From contig NZ_HF954534.1 in NCBI RefSeq assembly GCF_000455225.1, forward strand, positions 51,660 to 85,971: 34,312 nucleotides of DNA, in the 5' to 3' direction. Positions 420 to 15,564 of this stretch are shown in pieces. The stretch comes from Megasphaera massiliensis (lineage in GTDB: Bacteria > Bacillota > Negativicutes > Veillonellales > Megasphaeraceae). Made by a program: the position numbers and the translations under genes. Under the pieces are notes generated by a model. That model saw only the letters and a list, made by a program, of their open reading frames with translations, was not told the origin of the DNA and did not search any database. Position 1 is the first letter of the stretch. Each line of letters begins with the position of its first letter.

Positions 420-824
420 TCACCCTTTCTGCTTGGCCGCAATGGCCAGCCGCTTGACGCCGGCAGATTTCAACATGTCCATGACGGCTACGACCTGGCC
501 GTGAGCCGTGCCCTTATCGGCCTGGAGGACGACGGCGGCATTGGCATTATCGGCCATGTGCTTCTTCATCAAAGTCGACGCTTCGTCGATACTGACCGGC
601 TTGTTGTCGAGGGTAATATGGCCGTCCTTGTCGACGGTGACGATCAAGGGCATCTGAGCCGGAGCCGAAGCGCTCTGGGCCTGAGGAAGCTGGACGGAAA
701 GGGCTTTTTGGGCGACGGTCTGCAAGCTGTTCATCATAAAAAATACGAGGAGGAAGAAGATGATGTCGATCATGGGGATGATCATGAACACGGGCTTCTT
801 CTTCATTCTGACGTGAGAAAACAT
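420..824 (-). CDS. exbD: ExbD/TolR-family biopolymer transport protein
   Basis: A 134-aa inner-membrane protein of the TonB-ExbB-ExbD proton-driven motor. It has a short cytoplasmic N terminus (KKKPVFMIIPMIDIIFFLLVFF), a single transmembrane helix at about residues 13-33 carrying the conserved aspartate of the PMIDIIFFLLVFFM motif, and a periplasmic domain of about 100 residues ending in an AAKQKG tail. Length and motif match the family. An AGGAGG-type ribosome binding site lies upstream of the chosen ATG. The gap to exbB is 12 bp and to tonB 5 bp, so the three are one transcription unit. TolR is the main alternative, but the adjacent TonB-like gene and the Fur-like box upstream of exbB favour ExbD. 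Confidence 0.93.
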   Translation of the reverse strand: MFSHVRMKKKPVFMIIPMIDIIFFLLVFFMMNSLQTVAQKALSVQLPQAQSASAPAQMPLIVTVDKDGHITLDNKPVSIDEASTLMKKHMADNANAAVVLQADKGTAHGQVVAVMDMLKSAGVKRLAIAAKQKG

Positions 825-836
825 GACTTTCGCCTC

Positions 837-1448
837 CTATCCTGCTTTTTGGGCCTGCATGACGTCGAGGCAGACCCGTTCCGTATCGGTGACAATCGTG
901 TCGAGCTGATGCGAGAAATAGGTATAGACGCAGAAGGCCAGGATGGCTACACAGAGGCCCGTTGCCGTGGCGACTAAGGCCTCGCCGACACCGCCGCTGA
1001 TGGCCGAGGCACCGGCACCGTTATCGAGGACGCTGAAGGTACTGATCATGCCCGTAACCGTCCCCAAGAGCCCTAACAGGGGAGCGATGGTGACGATGGC
1101 ACTGAGATAGTCGAGATACCGCTGGAAGCCGATGGCTTCGACGTGCATCTGTTCATGAAAGGCCGTCTTCATCCGATTTTCGTCGCCGCCGTATTTCAGG
1201 CCGTTGGCGACGATGCGGCTCATGGCCGTCGGAAACTGCCGGCAGTAGGCATCGGCCCGGTCCCATTCCCGGCTCTCGGCCGCCTCACTGACGCCGGCGC
1301 AGAACTCCTTGGATCCTTTGCGGTTCACCCGGTAGTAGCCAAAGCGTTCGATGGCGATGGCCAGGGTAAAAATAGACAGCAGCAAGAGAGGATACATGAC
1401 CAGACCGCCGCTGTGAAACAACTGTAAGGCATACTGAAAAGCTTCCAT
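837..1448 (-). CDS. exbB: ExbB/TolQ-family proton channel (MotA/TolQ/ExbB)
   Basis: A 203-aa inner-membrane protein, first gene of exbB-exbD-tonB. One transmembrane helix lies near residues 15-35 (GGLVMYPLLLLSIFTLAIAIERF), followed by a cytoplasmic domain and two more helices. The second carries the family signature APLLGLLGTVTGMISTF (about residues 120-140), and the third is around 160-180. This three-helix layout and the LLGLLGTV motif are typical of ExbB. It forms the pentameric proton channel around ExbD and powers TonB. The promoter about 50-125 bp upstream carries the Fur-like box and the repeated upstream element described separately, which suggests iron control. The preceding ABC exporter gene ends 160 bp upstream, so some read-through from the heme unit is possible. 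Confidence 0.93.
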   Translation of the reverse strand: MEAFQYALQLFHSGGLVMYPLLLLSIFTLAIAIERFGYYRVNRKGSKEFCAGVSEAAESREWDRADAYCRQFPTAMSRIVANGLKYGGDENRMKTAFHEQMHVEAIGFQRYLDYLSAIVTIAPLLGLLGTVTGMISTFSVLDNGAGASAISGGVGEALVATATGLCVAILAFCVYTYFSHQLDTIVTDTERVCLDVMQAQKAG

Positions 1449-1608: not shown

Positions 1609-3330
1609 CTAGGCTTTTGAAGAAAACTGAGCCCGGTATAAGTCATAATAAGCCCCTTTTTTCGCTATCAGCGCTTCATGGGACCCTTCTTCGGCAATCC
1701 CCTCTCCGGTCAGGACCACGATGCGGTCGGCCTGGCGGATCGTCGCCAAGCGGTGAGCGATGATCAGCGTCGTCCGCTTCGCCGACAAGGCCGTCAAAGC
1801 CTGCTGGATCCGCAGTTCTGTTTCGTTATCGAGAGACGACGTGGCCTCGTCGAGGATCAGGACCGGCGGGTTCTTAAGGAACATGCGGGCAATGGCCAAT
1901 CGCTGTTTTTGACCGCCCGACAAGAGGATGCCCCGTTCGCCGACGTAACTGTCATAGCCTTCGGGCAGGGCCTCGATAAAGGCGGCGGCATCGGCTTTTT
2001 TCGCCGCTTCCCGAAGGACCTCATCGGGCGCCGTCTCATCGCCAAGGGCGATATTGTCCCGAATCGAGCGGGCAAAGAGAAAGACATCCTGCTGGACGAT
2101 GCCCACGGCCTGCCGCAGCGACGCCAGGGTATAGTCGCGGATATCCCGGCCGTCGAGGACGATGGAACCGGCCGAAACGTCATAAAAACGAAGGATCAGA
2201 TTGGCAAGGCTGCTCTTTCCGACACCGGTAGCACCGACGATGGCTACCGTTTCCCCCGGCGCGACGGTCAAGTTAAAATCCTTCAAAATCATCGTATCGC
2301 TGCCGGGATACGAAAAGGACACGCGGCGAAATTCCAGACGCCCTTCAATTCCCTCAGCCTCGACGGCGCCGGGACGGTCGACGATCTCAGCCTGTTGGTC
2401 CATCAATTCTGCATAACGACGAAATCCGGCCATACTGCGCTGATACCGTTCCGTCAGGACGGTGAGCTGCATGATAGGCCGGATAAAGAGCATTAGATAC
2501 ATCAAAAAGACGACTAAATCGGCGACGGCCATGGCTCCGTGAATGATAAAATAACTGCCGGCAGCAATGATGACCAAGTTGTTTACATTGGTAAAAAAGA
2601 GGATGGTACTCATCAAATAGGCTTCCAGGAGATTGGTCCTCTTTTGGGCCTGCCGCAGCTTTTGGCTGGCCCCTTCAAAATGGCGGAAGATGCGGTTTTC
2701 ACTGCCAAAGGCCTGAATGACCCGGATGGCACTGAAGCTTTCGGCACAGACCGTACTGAGGCTCCCCATTTTCTCCCGCGCGCGGAAAAAGGTCTTCTTC
2801 ATCCGTCGGTTGAGCCATATCGTATCGGCCGTCTTTAGGGCCAAAACGACGAGGACCAGACCGGCCAACTGCCAATTGAGGCGGAACATGAAGAAGGCAC
2901 TGCCGGCCATGGTAATCGTGCAGACGAGGGCTAAGTTAGGCAGTTGAAAGACGAGATCGCCGATCTCTGAAATATCGCTGATGACCGTCGACACGAGCCG
3001 TCCCGTATGGACGCGGTCAAAGAAGGAAAAACTCAGCCCTTCCACATGGGAAAAGAGGTCACAGCGAAGGTCATGCTCGATGCGGGCTCCCATATTCCGG
3101 CCGCAGTAATAGACGAGAAAGGTCAGGAGCAGACAGAGGACGTAGAGCCCCAAAAGGCCGAGGGCTGACCGAATCAGGGCCTCTAAATCCCCGGACGGCA
3201 GGACGACGTCGAGGATATGGCGGACCACCATGGGAAAGAGGGTCTCCAAGACGGCCGATAAGACGGAGCCGATAACGACGACGGCCAGGAGCCGGCCGTA
3301 CGAGCGGTAGCAGGATAAAAAGCGCTTCAT
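1609..3330 (-). CDS. ABC exporter half-transporter (MsbA/MdlB-like, fused TMD-NBD)
   Basis: A 573-aa type IV ABC exporter subunit, expected to act as a homodimer in the inner membrane. Residues about 1-310 hold six transmembrane helices (ABC_membrane). The ATPase domain follows, with Walker A GATGVGKSS near residue 365, Q-loop VQQDVFLF, signature LSGGQKQRLAIARMF near residue 470, Walker B VLILDEATSSLD and H-loop IIAHRLATI. All catalytic motifs are intact. Its ATG overlaps the end of the chaN-like gene by 4 bp (ATGA), so the two are translationally coupled within the heme/iron unit. The substrate cannot be read from sequence. Position suggests export of a metal chelator, porphyrin or related compound, but generic lipid or drug export is equally compatible. 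It is the last gene of the unit; the weak hairpin after its stop is not a convincing terminator. Confidence 0.9.
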   Translation of the reverse strand: MKRFLSCYRSYGRLLAVVVIGSVLSAVLETLFPMVVRHILDVVLPSGDLEALIRSALGLLGLYVLCLLLTFLVYYCGRNMGARIEHDLRCDLFSHVEGLSFSFFDRVHTGRLVSTVISDISEIGDLVFQLPNLALVCTITMAGSAFFMFRLNWQLAGLVLVVLALKTADTIWLNRRMKKTFFRAREKMGSLSTVCAESFSAIRVIQAFGSENRIFRHFEGASQKLRQAQKRTNLLEAYLMSTILFFTNVNNLVIIAAGSYFIIHGAMAVADLVVFLMYLMLFIRPIMQLTVLTERYQRSMAGFRRYAELMDQQAEIVDRPGAVEAEGIEGRLEFRRVSFSYPGSDTMILKDFNLTVAPGETVAIVGATGVGKSSLANLILRFYDVSAGSIVLDGRDIRDYTLASLRQAVGIVQQDVFLFARSIRDNIALGDETAPDEVLREAAKKADAAAFIEALPEGYDSYVGERGILLSGGQKQRLAIARMFLKNPPVLILDEATSSLDNETELRIQQALTALSAKRTTLIIAHRLATIRQADRIVVLTGEGIAEEGSHEALIAKKGAYYDLYRAQFSSKA

Positions 3331-4256: not shown

Positions 4257-6287
4257 TTACCACTTCCATTCAGCGCCGATCCGCCACATCCGGCCGTCGA
4301 CATAGATGTCGTCGACTTTCTTGTCAAAAATATCATCGACGCCGCCGTAGACGGCAAAGCCGCCGCTCAGTTTCTTGCGGAAGGAGAAGTTCAGCGTATT
4401 ATAGGTATAATCCTGTCCGTCAAAGCGGTAGTCGTTGCTGAACTGATCCCAGAGGACGGCACTGAAGCCCTTTTCTTTATGATCGTCGTATAAGAGTTGC
4501 AGCGTCGTCGTATGTCTGGCCCGATAATTGAGGCGTTCGCCCGTCGTACCGTTGGTCGCGTCGAGGTAGTTATGGGTCATCTTCACGGTCCAGCGGTCAT
4601 TGAGGCGGCGCCCCACTTCGGCTTCGACGCCGTTGATATCGGCCTTGGCGATATTGATGTACTGATAGGTCATATAGCCGATGGGAGCTGTTTCGATTAA
4701 GTTGGTCACCTTATTATGGAAATAGGTCAATTTCCCGAAATTGCGGCCTTTATCGTATTCTAAGCCGAAGTCGAAGCTCGTCGATTTTTCCGGTTCCAAA
4801 TCGGGATTGCCGTAGATATTGACCGTCGTCGCTCCCATGGCCCGGTGCATTTCCATATAGAGTTCACTGATGGACGGGGCCTTATAGCCCTGGCCGTAAT
4901 TCGATTTAAAGCGCCAGTTCTGATCGATGTTATACGTCAGGCCGATTTTAGGCGTCGTCTGACTGCCGAACTGGCTGTTGTGCTCAAAGCGCAGGGACGG
5001 GATGAGCAGCAGGCGGTCGTTGACCTGCCACAAGTCTTCTACATAGCCGGCATAGGAATTGACTTCGTGCCCGGCCACAGCCTTATCAAGACCGACTGAC
5101 GAACCGGAGAGACGGGTCCCTTCGTATTTCAGTTTCCGATATTCGCCGCCAAAGGTCAGGTTATGATGGTCGCCGATATACATCGTATCCTGGGCTTCGG
5201 TCACCCAAGTGCTGTAATCAGCCCGGTCCATATCGGCTCTGGGGTACATGCCGCCTAAGATCCGTTCCATCATGCCCGGAAAGAGAGGGCGGTCATTGTA
5301 GATGACAGAATTTTTCTTCAACTGATTGTAATACGTGCGGAACATGTAGTCATTGCGGCCGGTCTTCCCCGTGTATTCGACGCTGGCTGCCCGCTCCTGT
5401 TCATGGTAAAATTCCCGCTTATCCAGCGACGTCGGAAGCTTCATGGGCCCCATGGCATACCAGGCCGGAGCAAAATCGGACCGCAGGTCATCATTATGAT
5501 ACTCCAGGTCGACGCGCAGCTTGTTGTCGTTGCTGTTTTCAAAGTCATAGACGCCGGCCAGCTGGTACATGCGGCGCATGCCGTACATGGCCCGGTCATA
5601 GCCTTCGGTCACGGTCCGCGTGCCGCGGCCGGAGACGGTGCTGCTGTAGACGTAGCGGTTAAAGGGCCGCAGCCGGTCCCAACGGGCGTCGAAGGACGTC
5701 GACCAACGATGGTGTTTGCCAAAGTCGACATTGACGTATGACGCCGTATTTTCCGTACCGGTGACGACGCCTACAGTGCCGCCGGCCTTATCGGGGACCT
5801 TGGTGATGATATTGATGACGCCGCCCATGGCATCGGAGCCGTAGAGGGAGCTCGACGGGCCGCGGACGATTTCAATGCGCTCGATATCGCTCAAATCGAG
5901 GCGTTCCAGGGCATAGACGTTGGTCGTGACATCCGTGTCTTCACCGGCATAGCGCTTGCCGTCGACGAGGATCAGCGAGTGGTTGGTGCTCATGCCGCGA
6001 ATCATGACGGCGTTCCCCGTCATGCCCGCCCGGGCCAGGTTGACGTTATTGGCCAGTTGCAGGGCCGACCGGACATTCGCCGCTCCCATGCGCTGCAGAT
6101 CTTCCTGCGTCCAGACTTCGACAGCCTGAGGCACGGTCTTCACTTCTTCTTCGGTCTTGGTCGCCGTGACGATGACGTCTTTTAATTGGACCGGTTCTTC
6201 ATTTCCGACGGCAGCGCCTTCAATCGTTCCATACAAGGACGTCGTCATGAGTACGGCTAAGAGTGCCGTATAGTTACGATAGTTCAT
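4257..6287 (-). CDS. TonB-dependent outer-membrane receptor, probably heme/siderophore
   Basis: A 676-aa receptor of normal family length. It starts with a signal peptide (to about residue 25) and a TonB-box-like KDVIVTAT (about residues 36-43). The plug domain runs to about residue 165, with MIRGMSTNHSLILVDGKR and IEIVRGPSSSLYGSDAMGGVINIITK. A 22-strand-type barrel follows, ending in the outer-membrane terminus RIGAEWKW. In the extracellular region YKAPSISELY is followed by a histidine (MEMHRAM) and then GNPDLEPEKS. This resembles the FRAP-His-NPNL layout of heme receptors but is not exact. It lies 21 bp after the ATPase gene and 12 bp before the ChaN-like gene. Heme is the favoured ligand from the ChaN neighbour and the His; a siderophore or corrinoid cannot be excluded. 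Confidence 0.9.
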   Translation of the reverse strand: MNYRNYTALLAVLMTTSLYGTIEGAAVGNEEPVQLKDVIVTATKTEEEVKTVPQAVEVWTQEDLQRMGAANVRSALQLANNVNLARAGMTGNAVMIRGMSTNHSLILVDGKRYAGEDTDVTTNVYALERLDLSDIERIEIVRGPSSSLYGSDAMGGVINIITKVPDKAGGTVGVVTGTENTASYVNVDFGKHHRWSTSFDARWDRLRPFNRYVYSSTVSGRGTRTVTEGYDRAMYGMRRMYQLAGVYDFENSNDNKLRVDLEYHNDDLRSDFAPAWYAMGPMKLPTSLDKREFYHEQERAASVEYTGKTGRNDYMFRTYYNQLKKNSVIYNDRPLFPGMMERILGGMYPRADMDRADYSTWVTEAQDTMYIGDHHNLTFGGEYRKLKYEGTRLSGSSVGLDKAVAGHEVNSYAGYVEDLWQVNDRLLLIPSLRFEHNSQFGSQTTPKIGLTYNIDQNWRFKSNYGQGYKAPSISELYMEMHRAMGATTVNIYGNPDLEPEKSTSFDFGLEYDKGRNFGKLTYFHNKVTNLIETAPIGYMTYQYINIAKADINGVEAEVGRRLNDRWTVKMTHNYLDATNGTTGERLNYRARHTTTLQLLYDDHKEKGFSAVLWDQFSNDYRFDGQDYTYNTLNFSFRKKLSGGFAVYGGVDDIFDKKVDDIYVDGRMWRIGAEWKW

Positions 6288-6308: not shown

Positions 6309-7097
6309 TCAGTGCGTCCCATAAGGCACACACAGGCGGTACGTTTCAGCACCTTCCTGTACTTCCGTAATAATAGCTTGTATGTCGTACAGCGGTTCAA
6401 TGATGTCCCGCCGAAACACATCCTTAACCGGTCCGTCGACGACGATCCGTCCTTCTTTGACGGCAATCAGGCGATGGCTGTAGCGGGCGGCATGATTCAG
6501 GTCATGGAGGACCATGACTACCAACACGCCCGTCGTTTCATACAGTTCAGCGATGAGTTCCATTAAATCTAATTGATGGTGAATATCTAAATAAGTCGTC
6601 GGCTCGTCGAGGAGCAGGACTTCCGGCTCCTTGGCCAAAGCCAGTGCCAGCCAGGCCCGCTGCCGTTCCCCGCCGGACAGGGCCGAAAGGCGTCGGTGCT
6701 GCAGCTTGGTCATCCCCGTCCCGGCCAGCGCCTTATCGGCAGCCTTACCATCTTCTTCGCGAAGGCTGGAAAAGAGGCTCTGATAAGGAAGCCGTCCCAA
6801 GAGGACCAAGTCCCGCACGGTAAGATCGCCGGGGGCCTGCATCGACTGGGGCATAAAAGAGATCATACGGGCCAGGGCATCCGTCGAAAAGCTGTTCATG
6901 TCGCGGCCGTTCAAGGTGACGACGCCGGCCGACGGCAGGATCAGGCGGGCCATCGTCTTCAGCAGCGTCGACTTCCCCGACCCGTTGGGGCCGATGATGG
7001 AGATGATTTCTGCCTTGTCCAGTACCAGGTTCAAGTCCCGGGCAACGACCTTATTGCCGTATTGGATCTGAAGACCCTTAAGTTCAATAGGACTCAT
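6309..7097 (-). CDS. Fe3+-siderophore/heme/cobalamin-type ABC transporter ATPase (FecE/BtuD family)
   Basis: A 262-aa cytoplasmic ATPase of a type II importer. It shows Walker A GPNGSGKST (about residues 36-44), Q-loop FMPQSMQ, signature LSGGERQRAWLALALA, Walker B VLLLDEPTTYLD and H-loop VLHDLNHAARYSHR, the FepC/HmuV/BtuD pattern. The start at 7097 (MSPIELKG) is chosen because it overlaps the permease stop as ATGA; the in-frame extension upstream of it reads through permease coding sequence and looks spurious. The cognate permease and binding protein precede it, and the receptor follows 21 bp later. Substrate specificity is not visible in the ATPase itself. Confidence 0.92.
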   Translation of the reverse strand: MSPIELKGLQIQYGNKVVARDLNLVLDKAEIISIIGPNGSGKSTLLKTMARLILPSAGVVTLNGRDMNSFSTDALARMISFMPQSMQAPGDLTVRDLVLLGRLPYQSLFSSLREEDGKAADKALAGTGMTKLQHRRLSALSGGERQRAWLALALAKEPEVLLLDEPTTYLDIHHQLDLMELIAELYETTGVLVVMVLHDLNHAARYSHRLIAVKEGRIVVDGPVKDVFRRDIIEPLYDIQAIITEVQEGAETYRLCVPYGTH

Positions 7098-8104
7098 GGC
7101 GTACCCAGCCTCCGTCTCAATAAATACAGGAAAAACGGCGCCCCGATAAAGGACATGAAGATGCCGACGGGAACTTCCATGGGACTGAAGACCGTCCTGG
7201 CCGCAGCGTCTGCGCCGGCTACCAAGACGGCACCGAACACGGCCGAGCAAGGCAAAAGGGGCTCGAAGTCAGAACCGACGATGAGGCGCATCACGTGGGG
7301 CACGACCAGGCCGACGAAGCCCAAAAGGCCGGCTACGCTGACGGCAGACGCCGCCAAAAGCGCGGCCAGGGCTACTAAAAGAGCCCGCGTCCGATGGACC
7401 TGAACGCCTAACGTCTGAGCTACGTCGTCGCCGAGCTGCAGGGCATTGAGGCGCCGATAGAGGCAGATCGTCCCCACCATGCCGATCAGACTATAAGGCA
7501 GGATCATGCGCACGCTCTGCCAGCCGGCACCGGCAAATCCGCCGGCCATCCAGGACACGGTTCCCTGGACCTTATCGGAAAAGAAAACGGACAAGGCCGT
7601 CATGCCGCCGCCAAAGAAGGCCGCCACGGCCACCCCGGCCAGTACCAGGCGCAGGGGATTGACGCCCCGCTCCCAGGCCAGGAAAAAGACGATGGCCGCC
7701 GCCCCTAAGGCTCCGGCAAAGGCCGCTAAAGGCACCCAAACGGTCAGCGTCGGCGCCAGCATCATCAAGGCCATAGCCGCCAGGCCCGCTCCGGCCGAAA
7801 TGCCGATAATGCCCGGATCGGCCAAGGGATTGCGAAGGACCCCTTGGAGGATGCAGCCCGACAAGGCCAGGTTGGCCCCGGCCAAGGCGGCGCAGATGCC
7901 GCGAGGCATGCGCAGGGTATAGATGATACGGTAATCTTCCGTCGTCCCCGGCGCCCGCAACGCCAGCCAAAGATCCGGTAAGGGGATCGATACGGCACCG
8001 ACGACGACCGTTAAAATAAGGACACCGACCAAGAGGACCAGGCCGGCTAAGAGGACCGTCAGCCGCCGGATCTCTCTTTTCCGGGTGACCTTATCCGCCA
8101 TCAT
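7094..8104 (-). CDS. FecCD-family ABC transporter permease (iron/heme/B12)
   Basis: A protein of about 336 aa with the many hydrophobic segments of the FecCD/BtuC family (usually ten helices). Family features include PRGICAALAGANLALSGCILQG, NPLADPGIIGISAGAG, a GLVVPHVMRL segment near the ATPase contact loop and a C-terminal PVGIFMSFIGAPFFLYLLRR. The start is set at the ATGATG (8104/8101) that overlaps the TGA of the binding-protein gene, giving the ATGA coupling seen elsewhere in the operon. The long in-frame N-terminal extension is out-of-frame binding-protein sequence and was discarded. It forms the inner-membrane channel that takes the ligand from the binding protein, driven by the next-encoded ATPase. 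Confidence 0.92.
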   Translation of the reverse strand: MMADKVTRKREIRRLTVLLAGLVLLVGVLILTVVVGAVSIPLPDLWLALRAPGTTEDYRIIYTLRMPRGICAALAGANLALSGCILQGVLRNPLADPGIIGISAGAGLAAMALMMLAPTLTVWVPLAAFAGALGAAAIVFFLAWERGVNPLRLVLAGVAVAAFFGGGMTALSVFFSDKVQGTVSWMAGGFAGAGWQSVRMILPYSLIGMVGTICLYRRLNALQLGDDVAQTLGVQVHRTRALLVALAALLAASAVSVAGLLGFVGLVVPHVMRLIVGSDFEPLLPCSAVFGAVLVAGADAAARTVFSPMEVPVGIFMSFIGAPFFLYLLRRRLGTP

Positions 8105-9063
8105 AGGGTCCCTCCCCCATACAGGCGGTCGGCCATGTATTCCATGGCATCGGCAATGCGGCTTCCCGGATTGACCGTAAATAGGGCCGTCGGCAGGGCA
8201 TAGACCTTCTCTTGGCGCACAGCCCGGACCTGACTCCAAGAATCGCTGTCAGCCATGGATGACCGGAATCGATCGGCCTCATCGGGACTCTGGCCCATGG
8301 AGATGATAAAGATGACCTGCGGATCTTGGCGCAGGACGTATTCCATGCTGAGGGGCACAAAGGGCTCGTGAGAACCGGCTCCCTCGGCAATATTGGTACC
8401 GTGGAGGCGTTTCAGCATATCGCCGGAAAAGCTGGCTGCCGTAGCCATATTGTTGCTGTCCGGCGAACTGAAGAGGATCAGGGCCCGCGGGCTTTCCTTC
8501 CCGCCGGCGGCTGCCATGACGGCATCGGTCCGATCTTTGATATCGGCAGCCTTCTTCGCTGCCTCCGGTTCATGGCCGGTCAATTCGCCAAAGAACTCCA
8601 GCGTCCTCAAACTGTCTTCCAAGGAATCCAAGGAATTGATGTACAGCGGGATGCCGTTTTGGGCCAGGGTTTGGCGAATCTGGTTGTGAAAAGGCACGTT
8701 GATGCCGACGACTAAATCCGGATGGAGCGATAAAATCGTCTCTAAATTAGGCCGATGAATGATGCCCACCGACGGGACGGCTGCCAAGGCCTCGGCCAGT
8801 TCCGGTGCCATAGAATCAGACGTCGGCTTGCCGACAATCGTATCCCGGCCGCCGGCAGCGTCATATAAATCAAGATTGGATACATTCAAAAAAACGACTC
8901 GCTGCGGGTGAACGGGAATCGTGACGGACTCTCCGGTTGCATCCACGACTTGACGAGTCGCTGTCGATGGTACCCCATCGGCGTCTGCCATCATGAACCA
9001 GGCCACGGCTGCCACGATGACAATGCCGCAAAAAATAAGACTGCTAATCAATACTTTACGCAA
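8101..9063 (-). CDS. Periplasmic/membrane-anchored substrate-binding protein (FepB/BtuF/HmuT class)
   Basis: A 320-aa cluster A-II type binding protein. After an N-terminal hydrophobic segment (residues about 5-24) come the family features RQVVDATGESVTIPVHPQRVV, NLDLYDAAGGRDTIVGKP, NLETILSLHPDLVVG (the helix between the lobes) and a C-terminal lobe with AVRQEKVYALP. There is no good lipobox around the only N-terminal cysteine (LIFCG), so it may be held by an uncleaved signal anchor rather than a lipid. It lies 25 bp downstream of a 36-aa membrane-protein gene and overlaps the permease gene by 4 bp. It should deliver heme, ferric siderophore or a corrinoid to the permease; iron/heme is preferred from the Fur-like box and the ChaN neighbour. 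Confidence 0.9.
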   Translation of the reverse strand: MRKVLISSLIFCGIVIVAAVAWFMMADADGVPSTATRQVVDATGESVTIPVHPQRVVFLNVSNLDLYDAAGGRDTIVGKPTSDSMAPELAEALAAVPSVGIIHRPNLETILSLHPDLVVGINVPFHNQIRQTLAQNGIPLYINSLDSLEDSLRTLEFFGELTGHEPEAAKKAADIKDRTDAVMAAAGGKESPRALILFSSPDSNNMATAASFSGDMLKRLHGTNIAEGAGSHEPFVPLSMEYVLRQDPQVIFIISMGQSPDEADRFRSSMADSDSWSQVRAVRQEKVYALPTALFTVNPGSRIADAMEYMADRLYGGGTL

Positions 9064-9504: not shown

Positions 9505-9759
9505 ATGAAACATACCCTCTATCTTTTCTCGTATCTCGTCATGCTGCCCTTAGCCGCTGCCGTCTTCGTCATCGCCCTTTTCACCGGCTGCGTGACTGTT
9601 GAATCCCTACTGAAAGCCTTGCTCTGGCTGACCCACAGCACGATGACGACGGAAACCAGAAACCTGGCCGTCGTCATCGCCGCTATGCCTCTTGCCCTGT
9701 GTTCAGCGTCGTGGGTACTGGCCCGCACGGCCTGTCAACTGCGCCATTATTGGTCCTAA
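9505..9759 (+). CDS. Small integral membrane protein of unknown function (84 aa)
   Basis: An 84-aa protein on the opposite strand to the iron island. A strong TTAGGAGGCG ribosome binding site precedes the ATG, and a good promoter with a Fur-like box lies upstream. Two hydrophobic helices are visible, about residues 5-28 (LFSYLVMLPLAAAVFVIALFTG) and 53-72 (LAVVIAAMPLALCSASWVLA), joined by a polar loop with several Thr residues. The C-terminal tail is basic (ARTACQLRHYW). I do not recognise a family. Its location inside the iron island and its promoter suggest an iron-linked role, but this is inference. The gene ends only 10 bp from the end of the convergent receptor gene, with no visible terminator between them. 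Confidence 0.7.
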   Translation: MKHTLYLFSYLVMLPLAAAVFVIALFTGCVTVESLLKALLWLTHSTMTTETRNLAVVIAAMPLALCSASWVLARTACQLRHYWS

Positions 9760-9769
9760 GGCAAGGGAT

Positions 9770-12700
9770 TTAAAATTTATAGGTCAGCTGCAGGCGGGCA
9801 TAATCGCCTAAGGTAAACTGTTCCGGCCCGTAGAGCGTATCGCGGCTGTGAATGCCCTTGGCATCGAAGGTATAGAAGGCTTCGACGAGGAAATTTTTAG
9901 CCGGTACATAGCCGGCACCGACGGTAAAGCTGCGAATGCCGTCGAGATAGCGGTCCGGCAGGCTTTCCGTACCGTTGCCGCCGAAGAAGGAGCCGTGCTG
10001 GAAGTATTTATAGTCGGCAAAGGCATTCCAGCTGCCCGGTATATCCGTATCGCTGCGGCCGACGTCGAGGCGCACCGTCCAGAAGTGAGGCGTTCCGCCC
10101 TTATCCCGGCCAAGAAGGGTAAAGTCTGCCGTGCCCCGCTGATGATCGTACCGGGACTGACCGTTCAGGAAGCGGCCGAATTCCGTACGGTTCTGGCCGT
10201 AGTCGGCAGACAGGCGCAGGTTCTGTCCGATCTGCCAGCGAGCCCCGATGCCGACGACGTCGGCAAAACGGTCAAAGATATCGACATCATTGCCGTGGTT
10301 ATTTTCCGAGAACCACGGCTGTTTGTCCTGCCTGAAAGAATGGAAGTACCAAGCCTGAAGGCCGAAATCAGCGCCGAATTGTTTCTTGACCTGGACGAAA
10401 GCCGCCCGATTGAGAGGGGCAATGACGTCGCGCCGGAGGATCGTCCCTTCCGTAAGGATCGGCCGACCGATGGCTTTTTCCAAAGCCGCCCGGGGCTGCT
10501 TACTGGCCGAATCGGCACTGCGGACGAGATCTTCCAGGGCTTTCAGGTATTCCGACAGCAGTCTGGGAATCTTCAGCCCGTAATTCGGGTCGTTTCCATT
10601 GATGTCGGCACTGCCGTAATTTTCCTTGTACAGTTCATCGATGAGATGGTCCAGCGTCGAGTCGAACCGGTACTGTGAATACCAACCCGCTCCGTCTTGA
10701 CCGGAATCTTTCCAATCGAGGCTGCCGATGCCTTCGATACCGTCATAGACATAATCGCCGGCCCTATCGCTGCGGCTCACATTACGCCACATGCTGCTGC
10801 CGTCCAAGGGACGGTAGGTCGTCCCCATTTCATCGTCCTTGCCGTAATAGCCCCAAGCTTCTTTGGCCGTATGCTCGGCAATGGCTTCATAGCCCCGATG
10901 CAGTTCCGCTTCCCGGGAAGTGAGGAAGGCCCGGCCGTCACCGAGAGCCCTGTCGTCACTGAGGCTGATGGAAAAGTATTTATTCATTTCCTGTTTATAG
11001 GCCTTTTCTTCCGGCGAGTCGAAGTCGCTGATGTAGCTGTTATAGTAGACATCGGCCGCCTTATAGACGACGGCTCCCGTGTCTTTATGCTTCAAGCGGT
11101 ACAATACCTTGCCGTGGATCGGCACGTTGAGGGTAATGCCGGCCTGAGCCGCTTCTTTGCCGTAGGCCGTGTTCACGATGTGCTGGAGGCGGCGGATCAC
11201 GGCGCCCTGCTCCTTCGTGTCGGCCCCGTTTTTTACGGCATCCCGCAGCTGCTGGTAGAAGTAGACCTTGTCGTTTTTCCCCTTATAGGACTTATTGTAA
11301 ATATCGTTGGGGCTGCCTTCGTCGTAGACCGTTCCTTCCCGGTCCGGATCGGTCGTTCCCGGCTTCAAGGGGTTGGCGCCGGCCATCTTGGCCAGATCAT
11401 AAGGCCAATCGTCGCGATTGAGACCGATCAATTCCGATACCGTCGGCGGCCGATAGAAGACGGCGTGCGTCGAATGGGTATAGGCCGAATCGGAGATACC
11501 CGTACTGTGCTTAAAGGACCCGTATCCCAGGCGGACCTGGGTATCCTTTCCGGTCCAAACGGCGCGGACACCGTCGAATTCTTTCCCGAACCAATACCCG
11601 GTGACCCCCATAGGTTCCGTCAGGCGGCCGATGGAGAAGTCCCATTGCCGGACGCGGTGCGTCAAGTCCGCTTCTTCGACGCGCTGATGTTGGAGGCCTT
11701 CTGACAAGGGCACGGTCTCTGCCGTATCGACGGCTGCCGCCCCGGAAGCGCTGCCCAAGAGGCGCAGGTTGGTATCGTCTCCCAAGCGGGCATCGACGCC
11801 CAAACGCAGGCGCTGGCTAAAGCCGTGTTCTCCCCGGTCATACATGTTGCGGTCTGCCGTATCGATGTACGTATCTGCCCTAAAGGGCGGCAGCTGGCGG
11901 TCCTGTCCCTTATGGGAATCCCACCGCAGGCGGTAGTCACCGATGATGTCCCAGCCTTCTCCCTTAGACTCGTCAAAGGGGCGGGCGATGAAGTCGTTCA
12001 TGCGAACCGGCGTTTTGGCAGCCCCTGCGCCTTCAGCAGCGGGAGCCTTCTTCCCTTCGAGGATGTCCCGGGCATCGCGGCCCAGTTTAAAGTTGACCCC
12101 AAAGCGGTAGACCCGCTGCTGCGTCGCCCGGTCGTCGTCGCGGTGGTTGAACAAGTTATTGATGCCGAAGTAGACCAATGAATCTTTATTGATCTTTTTC
12201 TGCACCATGAGGTTCCAAATGCCGAAGGTCTTCTTCTGGTACCGGGGCTTGCGGTACACGGCCCCTTCTCCCTGAAGGATATCGGGCCAGTAGTTCGACG
12301 AATCGGAAAGGGAATTGCTGTCCAGCATGTGGATGTAGTAATTGCCCCATAAGGACCCGCGCCAGCCGCTTGCCGGGTCGTCATAGTCAAGGCCGATATC
12401 GACCTTATGGACCGGCTTGTCAAGGAGGCGGCGCGGCATATCGGAGTCGCTCTTATTGATGGCGTGGAGCCAGGTATACCCCAGTTTAGCCGTCCAATGA
12501 CGGCCCAGTTTCTGCTTCACTTCCGCTTCCAATCCCGTAATTTCAGCGCGGCCGATATTCTTAAAGCTGTAAATCAAATCGGGGGCCCGCATCCATTTGG
12601 CCGAAAAGCCCAAATCAGGGGCAAAATCCATGTAGCGGCCGGTAAAATAGACGGTCATGTAATCTTTGATGCGGTTGTGGAAGAAGCCCAATCGGGCCGA

Positions 12701-14743
12701 CGTATTGTCATTTTCCCCTTCGATGCCGATGTCGAAGTTAACCGACGTTTCCGGCTTCAAGTCGGGATTGCCGACCCAGTACCAGCCCATGCGGGCCACG
12801 CCGATGCCGACGGGACTGCTGCCGTACATTTCCCAGTTATACCAGAGTTCACCCATGCCCGGTTCGGTATAGCCCGTGCCGATATTGGCTTTAAAGCGCC
12901 GGTGTTCGTTGCCGCCGACATTGTGGGTCAGCCCCAAATTGCCTGAAAGATGGCTGCCAAAGAGGCTGCTGTCGTCCAGCCGGAGAATAGGGGTCACGAT
13001 GGTCCTGTCGTTGACCTGCCACGTATCTTGGATGAAAAAATTACGCCGATTGATCGTGCCTCGCCCCGTCGTAATCCGGTTGTTGCGGCGGCGGTACTCT
13101 TCGAGAAAATGGCGGCCGTTAAAGACCGGCGCCTTTTCCCGGGTCTTGGGATCCGTCGCCATGCCCCACTCAAAATACTTGCCGACGATGTTCGATGCGC
13201 CGGCCAACTGCGGGTTCTGGTCGCGCAGCTGCTGTTCAAATGTCCAGTAGTCCTTCCACTTGTCGTCGGTCATGGACGAGTCATTGTACCAGCGGCTCGG
13301 CTCCTTATCCTTCAGCTTATGCCGTTCGTAATCGGTATAGGTAATGAGGGGCAGCGTCGACGGATCGTTGCGGTCGGCGCCGTAGTATTCATAATTTTGG
13401 TCCCATTGAGGCAGGCTGGTGCCGTTATCATAAAAGGCATAGTCGTGGATGTGGGACCAGACGGGAACGCTCGTATCTCCATCGTTTCGCATATAGGCAT
13501 CGATGCCTTCGACGAGGAGGCCCTTGTCGTAATCCCAGGGATCGATGTAGCGCGTCGACGTCCGGGGCGAGCTCTTGAGACGGCTTCCTTCGCCGGTCTC
13601 TTTGATAAAGCCGACGCCGTAGCTGAGGAGATGGCGGTCATTGATCTGCGTATTGGCCGACGCCTTGAGACTGCGCTGGCGGTGGTCGACGTCGTCGACG
13701 TATTTCAGCTCATTCTTGCCCTCGTAAGACGACCGTCCATAGTAATTGATGAGGGAAATATCGTCTTCCTTCATACGGGAATAATTCGTTTCTACACTCC
13801 AGTCGGTCCTGCCGGCCCGTCCCGTCCAGCCCAAATTATACGTATTGCGGTCAGCCCGCCGCTTAAAAATCTGTTGGGGCTCCATATCGCTGTCGGTGTG
13901 CTTGACGTGGCGAAGGAGGTCTTCCGTATAACGTTCGACGTTCCAATGGAGGCTGTTATTTTCATTGATGTCATACGTGCCGACCATACCGATCGTATCG
14001 GCCGTCCCGTGGTAGCGCAGGGAGTTTGGCTCAAAATTGGCCATATCCTTATTTTCGATGATCCACGTCCGCCGCGGCTTCTCACTGGCGTATACGGGCA
14101 TGATGTCCCGCTTGCTGCCGTAGACGCCGAGGCGCAGTTTTCCGATCTGGCCGGAGTCGGCGCGGAGGAAAAGATTGGTGTAGGGCGCTAACCCCTTATC
14201 GCCTTTGGCACGCATGCTTTCGGCATTGAACTGTATCTGAGGCGTGTCCGACGCTTTCTTGGTAATGATGTTAATGACGCCGCCAATGGCATCGGAACCG
14301 TACTTGGCACTGGCTGCCCCTTGGATGACTTCGATGTGATCGACATTTTCCGTCCCCAACCGCATGACTTCATCCATGGCGCCGGAATACTTGGCCAAAT
14401 CACCCATTACGGGCTGTCCGTCGATGAGGATCAGCGTATGACGCGGCTCGGCACCGCGGATCGACACGCCGGTCCGCCCCATGGCATCGACGGTCTTAGA
14501 CACACCGGTCTGGTTGAAAATGACGTCTTCCACCGATTTGGCCTGTTTTTCTTCAATTTCCTTGGCCGTAATGATTTGAACCTGCTGGGACTCCCACTTG
14601 GCATTTTCCTCGGCCTGAGACGATTGGACGACGACCTGCTTCGTCGTTACGGACTGACTGCCGTCTGCTGCATCTGCCGCCATCGTCAGCGGCGCCGACA
14701 GCCATAGGATAATAGCCCACGTCAGGGCCTTCTTCTGTTTCAT
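9770..14743 (-). CDS. Giant TonB-dependent receptor fused to a porin-like second beta-barrel (1657 aa)
   Basis: This protein is over twice normal receptor length. Residues 1-23 are a signal peptide (MKQKKALTWAIILWLSAPLT, then MAADA), and KQVVVQSS at 35-42 is a TonB-box-like segment. The plug runs to about 170 (SIRGAEPRHTLILIDGQPV; SAKYGSDAIGGVINIITKK). A receptor barrel follows to about 893, with YTEPGMGELW, GNPDLKPETS and terminal strand VYRFGVNFKLG. An Ala/Gly/Lys linker (about 894-914) joins a second domain, about 915-1657. That domain has amphipathic strands such as QWDFSIGRLTEPMG and FDGVRAVWTGKDTQVRLGYG, a polar insert at about 1088-1437 and a terminus RLQLTYKF ending in Phe, as in outer-membrane barrels. 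The ATG at 14743 precedes the signal peptide and has an AGAAGG site; an ATG ten codons earlier is less likely. The ligand is unknown. The second barrel's porin assignment is from strand pattern and terminus only. Confidence 0.85.
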   Translation of the reverse strand: MKQKKALTWAIILWLSAPLTMAADAADGSQSVTTKQVVVQSSQAEENAKWESQQVQIITAKEIEEKQAKSVEDVIFNQTGVSKTVDAMGRTGVSIRGAEPRHTLILIDGQPVMGDLAKYSGAMDEVMRLGTENVDHIEVIQGAASAKYGSDAIGGVINIITKKASDTPQIQFNAESMRAKGDKGLAPYTNLFLRADSGQIGKLRLGVYGSKRDIMPVYASEKPRRTWIIENKDMANFEPNSLRYHGTADTIGMVGTYDINENNSLHWNVERYTEDLLRHVKHTDSDMEPQQIFKRRADRNTYNLGWTGRAGRTDWSVETNYSRMKEDDISLINYYGRSSYEGKNELKYVDDVDHRQRSLKASANTQINDRHLLSYGVGFIKETGEGSRLKSSPRTSTRYIDPWDYDKGLLVEGIDAYMRNDGDTSVPVWSHIHDYAFYDNGTSLPQWDQNYEYYGADRNDPSTLPLITYTDYERHKLKDKEPSRWYNDSSMTDDKWKDYWTFEQQLRDQNPQLAGASNIVGKYFEWGMATDPKTREKAPVFNGRHFLEEYRRRNNRITTGRGTINRRNFFIQDTWQVNDRTIVTPILRLDDSSLFGSHLSGNLGLTHNVGGNEHRRFKANIGTGYTEPGMGELWYNWEMYGSSPVGIGVARMGWYWVGNPDLKPETSVNFDIGIEGENDNTSARLGFFHNRIKDYMTVYFTGRYMDFAPDLGFSAKWMRAPDLIYSFKNIGRAEITGLEAEVKQKLGRHWTAKLGYTWLHAINKSDSDMPRRLLDKPVHKVDIGLDYDDPASGWRGSLWGNYYIHMLDSNSLSDSSNYWPDILQGEGAVYRKPRYQKKTFGIWNLMVQKKINKDSLVYFGINNLFNHRDDDRATQQRVYRFGVNFKLGRDARDILEGKKAPAAEGAGAAKTPVRMNDFIARPFDESKGEGWDIIGDYRLRWDSHKGQDRQLPPFRADTYIDTADRNMYDRGEHGFSQRLRLGVDARLGDDTNLRLLGSASGAAAVDTAETVPLSEGLQHQRVEEADLTHRVRQWDFSIGRLTEPMGVTGYWFGKEFDGVRAVWTGKDTQVRLGYGSFKHSTGISDSAYTHSTHAVFYRPPTVSELIGLNRDDWPYDLAKMAGANPLKPGTTDPDREGTVYDEGSPNDIYNKSYKGKNDKVYFYQQLRDAVKNGADTKEQGAVIRRLQHIVNTAYGKEAAQAGITLNVPIHGKVLYRLKHKDTGAVVYKAADVYYNSYISDFDSPEEKAYKQEMNKYFSISLSDDRALGDGRAFLTSREAELHRGYEAIAEHTAKEAWGYYGKDDEMGTTYRPLDGSSMWRNVSRSDRAGDYVYDGIEGIGSLDWKDSGQDGAGWYSQYRFDSTLDHLIDELYKENYGSADINGNDPNYGLKIPRLLSEYLKALEDLVRSADSASKQPRAALEKAIGRPILTEGTILRRDVIAPLNRAAFVQVKKQFGADFGLQAWYFHSFRQDKQPWFSENNHGNDVDIFDRFADVVGIGARWQIGQNLRLSADYGQNRTEFGRFLNGQSRYDHQRGTADFTLLGRDKGGTPHFWTVRLDVGRSDTDIPGSWNAFADYKYFQHGSFFGGNGTESLPDRYLDGIRSFTVGAGYVPAKNFLVEAFYTFDAKGIHSRDTLYGPEQFTLGDYARLQLTYKF

Positions 14744-14788
14744 ACAACCTTCTTTCCCGACATATGTTTCCATACCGCAGTTATTTGT

Positions 14789-14886
14789 TGAAAATAATTT
14801 TCATATATGACGAGATTGTAACAGTAAAAGGGCTTTATCGTCTACTCCGTTAGGTTGAAAAAAGCTCCGTTCAGACATTTATTTTT
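14789..14886 (-). promoter_or_regulatory. Fusion-receptor promoter: direct repeat, extended -10, perfect Fur-like palindrome
   Basis: Minus strand: half-site AAATGTCTGAACGGAG (within 14886-14865), second half-site TAACGGAGTAGA (14852-14841) 20 bp later, extended -10 TGTTACAAT with hexamer 14820-14815, then TGAAAATTATTTTCA (14803-14789), a perfect 7-1-7 inverted repeat close to the Fur core TGATAATNATTATCA. The distance from the upstream half-site to the -10 is 45 nt, the same as before exbB. No -35 is recognisable. Confidence 0.68.
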
Positions 14887-14998
14887 AACATAACACTAAT
14901 TTATATCAAAATAAAACTATTTGATTTTTCCGATATCTCCCGCACACAGCCGGTGACTTCCACCAAAACACAGCTGCAAACAACGGCTGCCAATCCAT

Positions 14999-15035
14999 GA
15001 AAAAAAGCCCGCTCCAGGCATGGGAGCGGGCTTTA
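14999..15035 (-). terminator. Rho-independent terminator of the nitroreductase gene
   Basis: A 12-bp stem, AAAGCCCGCTCC (15004-15015) with its complement 15023-15034, and a 7-nt loop. On the minus strand it is followed by a run of seven T (15006-15000). It lies just after the nitroreductase stop and, in the other direction, upstream of the fusion-receptor promoter. Confidence 0.9.
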
Positions 15036-15051
15036 CTGTCAGAAAATAGGC

Positions 15052-15564
15052 TTATAAATAGGAAATGACGTCTTCTTCTTTTTTCGATTGGAAATGCCAG
15101 GCGGCGGGCTTTGCTTCCGGAGCGGGATAACCGATCTGCATGAGGGCGACGATTTCGGCGTCCTTCATTTCGGGGAACAATTTTTTCTGCTCTTCTGTGT
15201 CGAAGTCGCTTACCCAGGCGGCACCGAGACCTATGTTTTCGGCGGCCAGCCAGACCTGCATGGCGGCGATACTGGCATCGACGACGCCGTGATTCCGGCC
15301 GTCACTCTGTCGGACCCAGGCTTCGCCCGGTACATAACCGACGGCAATCGTCAGGGGCGCCTGGAAGTGGTATTTCGTGATGGCCTTGATCTGTTCGAGT
15401 TTCTCCTTCGATTCGATGACCCAGGCCCGAATGGGCTGATAGTTTACGGCACTCGGCGCCAGCATGATGGCTTCCTTCAGTTTATCAACGAGGGCCGGTT
15501 CTACTTTTTTATCCAAAAATTTGCGGACCGAATAACGATCCTTCATCAATGGTTCAAATTCCAT
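15052..15564 (-). CDS. Nitroreductase-family FMN oxidoreductase
   Basis: A protein of about 170 aa in the FMN-dependent nitroreductase fold. It has the N-terminal RYSVRKFLDKKV motif that contacts FMN phosphate, the APSAVNYQPIRAWVI loop, a central GRNHGVVDASIAAMQVWLAAENIGLGAAWV helix pair and a C-terminal LMQIGYPAPEAKP segment. Such enzymes reduce nitro compounds, quinones or flavins with NAD(P)H; the natural substrate is not evident. The ATG at 15564 is chosen because AAAAGGAG lies 8-9 nt before it. The frame is open to 15585, but that earlier start would place the RBS inside the gene. It appears to be a single-gene unit with a strong terminator. Confidence 0.9.
   Translation of the reverse strand: MEFEPLMKDRYSVRKFLDKKVEPALVDKLKEAIMLAPSAVNYQPIRAWVIESKEKLEQIKAITKYHFQAPLTIAVGYVPGEAWVRQSDGRNHGVVDASIAAMQVWLAAENIGLGAAWVSDFDTEEQKKLFPEMKDAEIVALMQIGYPAPEAKPAAWHFQSKKEEDVISYL

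Follow-up and report, generated by a model that had tools for sequence, protein, structure and literature searches.

The 34,312-nt stretch analysed here, referred to below as the window, comes from Megasphaera massiliensis (contig NZ_HF954534.1, positions 51,660 to 85,971), whose 2.7-Mb genome is available as a draft assembly of 28 contigs. Its minus strand carries an open frame predicted to encode a TonB-dependent receptor followed by an OmpM-type porin, which would place two outer-membrane barrels on one polypeptide chain. A first-pass annotation made from the sequence had reported a 1657-residue frame at 9770-14743, and this frame is indeed present on the minus strand. An alternative in-frame ATG at 14773 would give 1667 residues. 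The ATG at 14743 appears to be the better start since it is preceded by AAGAAGG, a motif resembling a ribosome-binding site, and residues are numbered throughout according to the 1657-residue form. The gene and the parts of its product are as follows.

9770..14743, minus strand: two-barrel gene, from the open frame and its translation; 1657 residues plus stop codon (9770-9772)
14678..14743, minus strand: signal peptide, residues ~1-22 (MKQKKALTWAIILWLSAPLTMA), read from the translation; a helix is predicted at 3-21 with low confidence
14627..14647, minus strand: TonB-box-like TTKQVVV, residues 33-39, read by eye from the translation
14249..14611, minus strand: plug domain, residues ~45-165; PF07715, 77.3 bits (cutoff 23.9)
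12080..14242, minus strand: first barrel, 22 predicted strands, residues 168-888; PF00593, 136.1 bits (cutoff 27), AlphaFold and fold searches
13079..13573, minus strand: variable receptor stretch between strands 9 and 10, residues 391-555, from identity comparison
11957..12079, minus strand: linker of 41 residues rich in Ala, Gly and Lys, residues 889-929, bounded by the last strand of the first model (888) and the first strand of the second (930)
9773..11956, minus strand: second barrel, predicted OmpM-type 16-strand porin fold with a terminal Phe, residues 930-1657; AlphaFold, fold match and hhalign
10415..11512, minus strand: variable insert, residues 1078-1443, at the predicted loop L4 of the second barrel, bounded by a drop in identity and by the edges of paralog-identical DNA (1079, 1444)

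The annotation had read the first part of the chain as a complete TonB-dependent receptor. In agreement, PF07715 and PF00593 both score above their cutoffs, and the signal peptide and a TonB-box-like motif can be found in the translation. The Ala/Gly linker, the polar insert of ~350 residues and the terminal Phe that it described are likewise all there, with the insert measuring 366 residues in the model. The linker needs no membrane crossing, since the last strand of the receptor and the first strand of the porin should both meet the periplasm.

Modelled by AlphaFold with 13 aligned sequences, residues 1-915 gave a mean predicted local distance difference test score (pLDDT) of 70.9 and a predicted template modelling score (pTM) of 0.73. 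By our reading the model contains 22 membrane strands, the last one ending at residue 888; together with the plug and barrel Pfam matches above cutoff, this predicted barrel places the first half among the TonB-dependent receptors. The best fold match is BtuB (Z 35.2, 532 of 551 aligned), with PirA and Cir tied (Z about 35). The signal peptide, TonB-box-like motif, plug and 22-strand barrel are shared with receptors of the BtuB/Cir/PirA/FepA fold; in contrast to these, the fused chain runs on into a second barrel and carries a long stretch of variable sequence between strands 9 and 10. Mean identity in this stretch (residues 391-555) is 36% versus 54% and 65% in the flanking barrel, and no Pfam match was found for it. 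The mean pairwise identity of the plug among relatives is 81%. Of the nearly invariant His positions, seven belong to the first half and three to the second.

The second half (residues 895-1657, AlphaFold with 14 sequences) was modelled with a pLDDT of 68.7 and a pTM of 0.58. By our count the model has 16 membrane strands; seven precede the insert at 1078-1443 and nine follow it. DSSP finds two more strands, 1089-1098 and 1429-1438, which we assigned to the insert. Were they membrane strands, the total would rise to 18 and the insert would come to lie on the inner side. We favour 16 strands, since this is the number in OmpM1 of Veillonella parvula and the fold match runs end to end. OmpM1 is a 16-strand general porin (PMC10628300). 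It ranked first for the second half in Foldseek (E 9.6e-13), and VIA-align superposed the two (8bym) with a Z of 27.1 and a root-mean-square deviation of 2.9 over 290 of 321 residues at 19% identity. The alignment spans model residues 35-763, and the next porin scored Z 22.1. Read from the order of the strands in the model, the insert would sit at outer loop L4.

Homology to OmpM proteins is also seen at the level of sequence. An OmpM of the same genome (L007) used as query retrieves the window gene (E 2.3e-11), and for a sister OmpM (L008) the comparison with the solved V. parvula protein gives E 2.4e-61. A local hhalign comparison of the undivided second half with the OmpM set covered the last 106 residues only, and splitting at the insert recovered the N-terminal part: the pre-insert portion then matched at positions 117-260 (E 2.9e-9, 96.1%) and the last portion at positions 356-453 (E 1.5e-13, 98.0%), the two matches being collinear, one on each side of the insert. 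When the second-half profile was run against PDB sequences, none of the four matches up to E 1 was convincing; a low-complexity Mediator subunit came first, and a designed transmembrane barrel scored E 0.12. Among the PDB searches, only fold comparison revealed OmpM. Porin_5 (PF16930, cutoff 22 bits) scored 20.3 bits with the whole protein and 22.4 with the second half alone; 13 of the 14 members of the second-half set (A2) match it at E up to 1, two relatives reaching 29.9 and 24.1 bits. The window insert taken alone had no meaningful PDB or Pfam match. Compared with OmpM (VpOmpM1, PDB 8bym; PMC10628300), the fused porin shares the 16-strand barrel fold and homology on both sides of the insert, whereas it stands behind a receptor instead of a surface-layer homology (SLH) domain, by which OmpM is attached to the cell wall, with a periplasmic stalk (no SLH match in Pfam up to E 1) and bears a module of ~366 residues at the predicted L4.

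The annotation had proposed tandem outer-membrane barrels and suggested that each half be predicted separately. Treated in this way, the chain resolves into a 22-strand receptor and a 16-strand OmpM1-like barrel. Nothing in the predictions spoke against a closed second barrel, closure being judged from the end-to-end fold matches, and no homologue marked the second half as a known extracellular domain of the receptor. The chain qualifies by prediction as a multi-barrel protein, one with at least two complete barrels, as each half matches a whole solved barrel. On the basis of models and homology we consider a receptor and a porin on one chain very likely. Both strand sets lie on one chain that was modelled per half only, and in principle all 38 strands might close into a single giant barrel, or the first barrel might be completed by the second half. 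This appears very improbable, as each half alone (22 and 16 strands) matches complete solved barrels end to end and finishes with its own terminal strand.

Solan et al. (2021) reportedly describe multi-barrel outer-membrane proteins as a class. Literature searches, which reached little subscription content and did not include that article itself, turned up no 22 + 16 strand receptor-porin type. GfcD also has more than one outer-membrane barrel on one chain, of 12 and 13 strands (PMC11494523). In contrast to the known multi-barrel proteins, the present one would combine a 22-strand TonB receptor with a 16-strand porin, has no middle domain, carries a huge variable loop and belongs to paralog families. 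Since multi-barrel proteins such as GfcD are already recognised, the receptor-porin would be a fresh type inside a known class.

The annotation had further advised looking for the architecture in other Negativicutes, where it does recur. In a search of the class, the second half matched 42 of 380 genomes from 7 of 102 genera (E up to 1e-15). At least one match lay in an open frame of at least 1,586 residues in 40 of the 42, the exceptions being G185 (1,293 residues) and G040 (103 residues), and nine carriers are single-contig assemblies. A genus search matched 7 of 15 genomes, with 0 of 2 in the sister genus (E up to 1e-20), an order search 28 of 61 (E up to 1e-12) and a phylum search 3 of 398, every one a member of the Negativicutes. 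One order-level match in a 483-residue frame (G032) was OmpM-sized and was not counted as fused. When the whole protein was searched against the genus, those among the matches listed with at least 45% identity all came from the seven carrier genomes. By species name, the carriers (25 loci) include Veillonella montpellierensis, Colibacter massiliensis, Megasphaera cerevisiae, M. micronuciformis and Anaeroglobus geminatus. Core identities of the two halves are correlated over the 105 pairwise comparisons among 15 proteins (Spearman 0.71, a value reached in 0 of 2000 permutations), as would be expected of halves with a shared descent.

These data bear on a further alternative, namely that two separate genes were merged by an assembly or sequencing error, the window being taken from a single draft assembly of 28 contigs. 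We give this hardly any credence, and for the family it is refuted: long frames containing the second half are found in 7 genera, including 9 single-contig genomes, and the receptor half lies in the same frame among the relatives examined, namely those of the 42 whose DNA was retrieved. Recurrence in 42 of 380 genomes, 40 of them with long frames and nine in a single contig, makes the fused frame more than a product of chance or an assembly slip.

Many copies are interrupted, most of all in M. cerevisiae and Colibacter. Fused genes form large paralog families, with 38 matching stretches in genome G001, and the copies frequently contain stops or frame changes or run into contig ends (C. massiliensis L092, L097; M. 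cerevisiae L093, L100-L103); the paralog copies may have fragmented the assembly. Two fused genes can also lie close together. In G014 (L149 14066-19091) a frame change near residue 220 splits the first of two in tandem, and an AraC-type regulator lies upstream; in G365 (L142 4594-9456, 13854-18716) two genes, both with 1621-residue frames, stand ~4.4 kb apart, the first one adjoining chuW/hutW.

Downstream of the window gene, and on the same strand, lie the genes from an ABC (ATP-binding cassette) importer to ExbD/TolR.

8101..9063, minus strand: periplasmic binding protein of IsdE-like heme/iron type; PF01497, TIGR03659 IsdE at 129 bits, below the cutoff of 298.65
7094..8239, minus strand: FecCD/BtuC-type iron-B12 permease; NCBIfam resemblance below curated cutoffs, start probably further in
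6309..7250, minus strand: ATPase of an iron/heme-type ABC transporter; NCBIfam resemblance below curated cutoffs, start probably further in
4257..6287, minus strand: single-barrel TonB-dependent receptor; PF00593 and PF07715
3327..4247, minus strand: ChaN heme-binding uptake protein; PF04187, 168.6 bits (cutoff 27.7)
1609-3330, minus strand: MsbA-like ABC exporter between ChaN and ExbB; 446 bits, below the MsbA cutoff of 602
837..1448, minus strand: ExbB/TolQ-type energizer; best tolQ at 80.3 bits, below cutoff
420..824, minus strand: ExbD/TolR-type protein; best tolR at 75.3 bits, below cutoff

The anaerobic heme-degradation gene chuW/hutW is located ~0.9 kb outside the window. It occurs in 110 of the 380 genomes, that is in 41 of 42 carriers and in 69 of 338 others (Fisher p 5e-24, ancestry ignored), and lies within ~20 kb of a fused gene in at least 17 of the 42 carriers, a lower bound because the class search scored two candidates a genome. 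In the Veillonella-type genome G047, an AraC regulator is followed in the direction of transcription by two fused genes, ExbB/TolQ, ExbD/TolR, a frame without a match in the position of TonB, a BilS-like flavodoxin (117.6 bits, cutoff 155) and ChuW/HutW (489 bits, cutoff 400). A BilS-like flavodoxin below cutoff (80.1 bits) is also found at L146, and by eye no heme genes were recognised at L141, L144, L145 and L148. In earlier reports, V. dispar and V. atypica are named as carrying heme clusters that include hmuW and TonB parts (PMC10404700), five or more proteins of the TonB family are listed for the outer-membrane fraction of V. parvula, with 6 of 9 systems detected (PMC5491611), and tonB and a hemin receptor are noted in vaginal Megasphaera (PMC8767330).

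This gene context is why heme is favoured as the ligand, and a role of the fused protein in heme or iron uptake seems rather likely. The context is one known from ChuA, ShuA and HmuR, with an importer of heme/iron type, ChaN and, nearby, chuW/hutW. The protein differs from these receptors in having no conserved His between the FRAP-like and NPNL-like motifs and in falling under the TIGR01785 and TIGR01786 cutoffs. It could take another iron carrier, or heme by means of other residues.

Upstream of the fused gene two features were noted.

14789..14803, minus strand: 15-bp palindrome TGAAAATTATTTTCA, candidate operator, 0 mismatches
14815..14844, minus strand: promoter-like TAGACG-18-TACAAT directly upstream of the palindrome; consensus scan, 9 of 12 matches, weak

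The palindrome, which we take to resemble a Fur box, is the sole exact match in the genome (reversed control 0) and lies between the weak promoter-like site and the gene start. The promoter consensus scan returned 9 sites versus 4.2 in shuffles. In the region 14600-15100 the only inverted repeat of at least 10 is the terminator-like stem of a neighbouring gene; hence no promoter inversion was seen.

The insert is much more divergent than the barrel on either side of it. Over 91 pairs, the barrel is 60% identical before and 67% after the insert, while the insert itself (1099-1443) is 24% identical with 31% gaps and lengths of 237-345. Three M. cerevisiae paralogs with open second halves (L093, L101, L109) have flanks 92-97% identical and inserts 35-42% identical, and 7 exact stretches of 107-167 bases are shared in this species. 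In a C. massiliensis paralog pair, 644 identical bases correspond to residues 904-1079 and 196 identical bases to residues 1444-1506; over the insert, DNA identity is 39-55% in 8 of 9 blocks of 90 bases. The breakpoints of identity coincide with the edges of the insert, which points to exchange or conversion around it. The receptor halves of this pair are mosaic too, with blocks from 41% to 100%.

A second source of variation might be homopolymer tracts. Among 32 distinct N-termini, the 12 with at least 7 G or C were examined. Read-through is in frame in 4 of the 12 copies (L109 with 12 G, L095 with 11 G, L145 with 7 G and L144 with 9 C), and in the other 8 (L026, L072, L096, L100, L104, L105, L110, L146) a signal-peptide-like stretch lies in another frame; L100 ends at a contig end, and homopolymer errors in draft assemblies are possible. 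These poly-G tracts in relatives suggest phase variation, and judging from the sequences it is plausible that phase or cassette switching would still be active in the family. The hemoglobin receptors HmbR and HpuAB of Neisseria are phase-variable. Like these, some relatives here have an early poly-G tract able to shift the frame; in contrast, the tract directly follows the signal peptide of a two-barrel protein, and the window copy is tract-free. The window gene has no homopolymer over 6 and is not a phase-variable protein by its repeat tracts; in the window as a whole, there is no run of 8 G and the tandem repeats are trivial ones. Our literature searches listed no description of a surface-variation system for the genera Veillonella and Megasphaera.

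Such variability could also mean that the second barrel is a scaffold or surface antigen whose variable module serves adhesion or the evasion of antibodies, phages or bacteriocins, with no hand-over of a ligand. Unlike inserts within near-identical flanks, insert variability in general and the poly-G tracts would fit diversifying selection, and the window insert matches no known family. However, fused genes reside in iron/heme loci in several lineages, the plug is 81% conserved and the divergence of the two halves is correlated; because of the latter two, import seems to matter. We consider the antigen explanation unlikely.

We now return to uptake, and what follows on ligand, capture, hand-over and trimerisation we infer from the data above. 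The gene would produce one outer-membrane protein with a receptor (1-888) and an OmpM-type porin (930-1657) side by side, joined by a short periplasmic linker. A heme or iron carrier would be captured at the cell surface by the L4 module together with the variable loop of the receptor and passed on to the receptor, which TonB/ExbBD would open. The porin barrel would anchor the L4 module beside the receptor, and could also cluster receptors if it trimerises as OmpM does. Among relatives, swaps of L4 cassettes and poly-G tracts following the signal peptide appear to diversify the family. On balance we lean slightly towards this explanation taken as a whole; for the L4 module by itself, the role of a capture device is put forward tentatively. 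Alternatively, the porin barrel might function as a pore in its own right and complement the receptor, letting out the stripped carrier, for instance, or allowing counter-solutes to pass. The full-length alignment with OmpM1, a general porin (PMC10628300), would be compatible with this, but the 366-residue L4 module may occlude the mouth, and we regard a working pore as quite improbable.

A number of observations weigh against capture and hand-over in heme or iron uptake by two barrels. Predictions cover the two halves of the 1657-residue chain separately, and confidence in the second half is moderate, with pLDDT ranging from 54.8 to 68.7 over five models. The case for heme as the ligand comes from gene context only. 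The fold of the receptor is closer to B12 and siderophore receptors than to ChuA (Z 30.9) or ShuA (Z 29.5), and its scores stay below the curated cutoffs for heme/hemoglobin receptors (TIGR01785, 126.6 versus 316.85; TIGR01786, 152.8 versus 323.75). No conserved His was found between the FRAP-like and NPNL-like motifs in any of 13 aligned members; L100 alone has a His within a longer variant of this stretch, at a position that is not conserved. The co-occurrence with chuW/hutW is inflated by shared ancestry (7 genera), and in 25 of the 42 carriers chuW/hutW was not seen near the fused gene (24 elsewhere, 1 absent). A Fur-like site with at least 12 of 14 matches is present in just 4 of 26 upstream regions of the family, the window's included; iron control is for this reason a suggestion, and as a family-wide feature the Fur site did not generalise. 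With respect to cassette exchange, the clearest swap pair consists of two interrupted C. massiliensis copies (L092 with a frame change, L097 with stops), which is offset by the open second halves of the M. cerevisiae trio. Finally, the upstream copies L091 and L094 from different species share a 66% identical insert within flanks of 75-76%, so inserts are not always fast-changing.

In its widest form, the proposal would amount to a diversifying import system in which TonB receptors are yoked to an OmpM-type porin with exchangeable L4 capture modules, recombination swaps and poly-G switching changing the carrier bound or hiding the protein from attack around one conserved transport engine. As a description of the family this is doubtful, if somewhat less so than a pure surface antigen. 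Multi-barrel outer-membrane proteins that occur in nature are recognised as a class but have been little studied; here an energised importer and a porin would be joined. The protein could serve as a test case for how the β-barrel assembly machinery (BAM) folds two barrels with an internal terminal strand, and for why barrels get fused. It also bears on iron uptake by gut and oral Negativicutes; the family, which has members in Veillonella and Megasphaera relatives, might serve as a system of surface variation.

A few minor features of the locus may be added. Heme receptors carry a conserved His between FRAP and NPNL motifs. In the single-barrel receptor at 4257-6287, unlike in the fused receptor, a His was read by eye between KAPS-like and NPDL motifs (EMHRAMG), presumably as expected of a heme receptor. 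Just outside the window (L147 7304-9119), an AraC-type regulator and a PNPOx-fold protein adjoin chuW/hutW. The intergenic region downstream of the fused gene contains an inverted repeat at 9641-9679, with perfect 12-bp arms separated by 15 bases.
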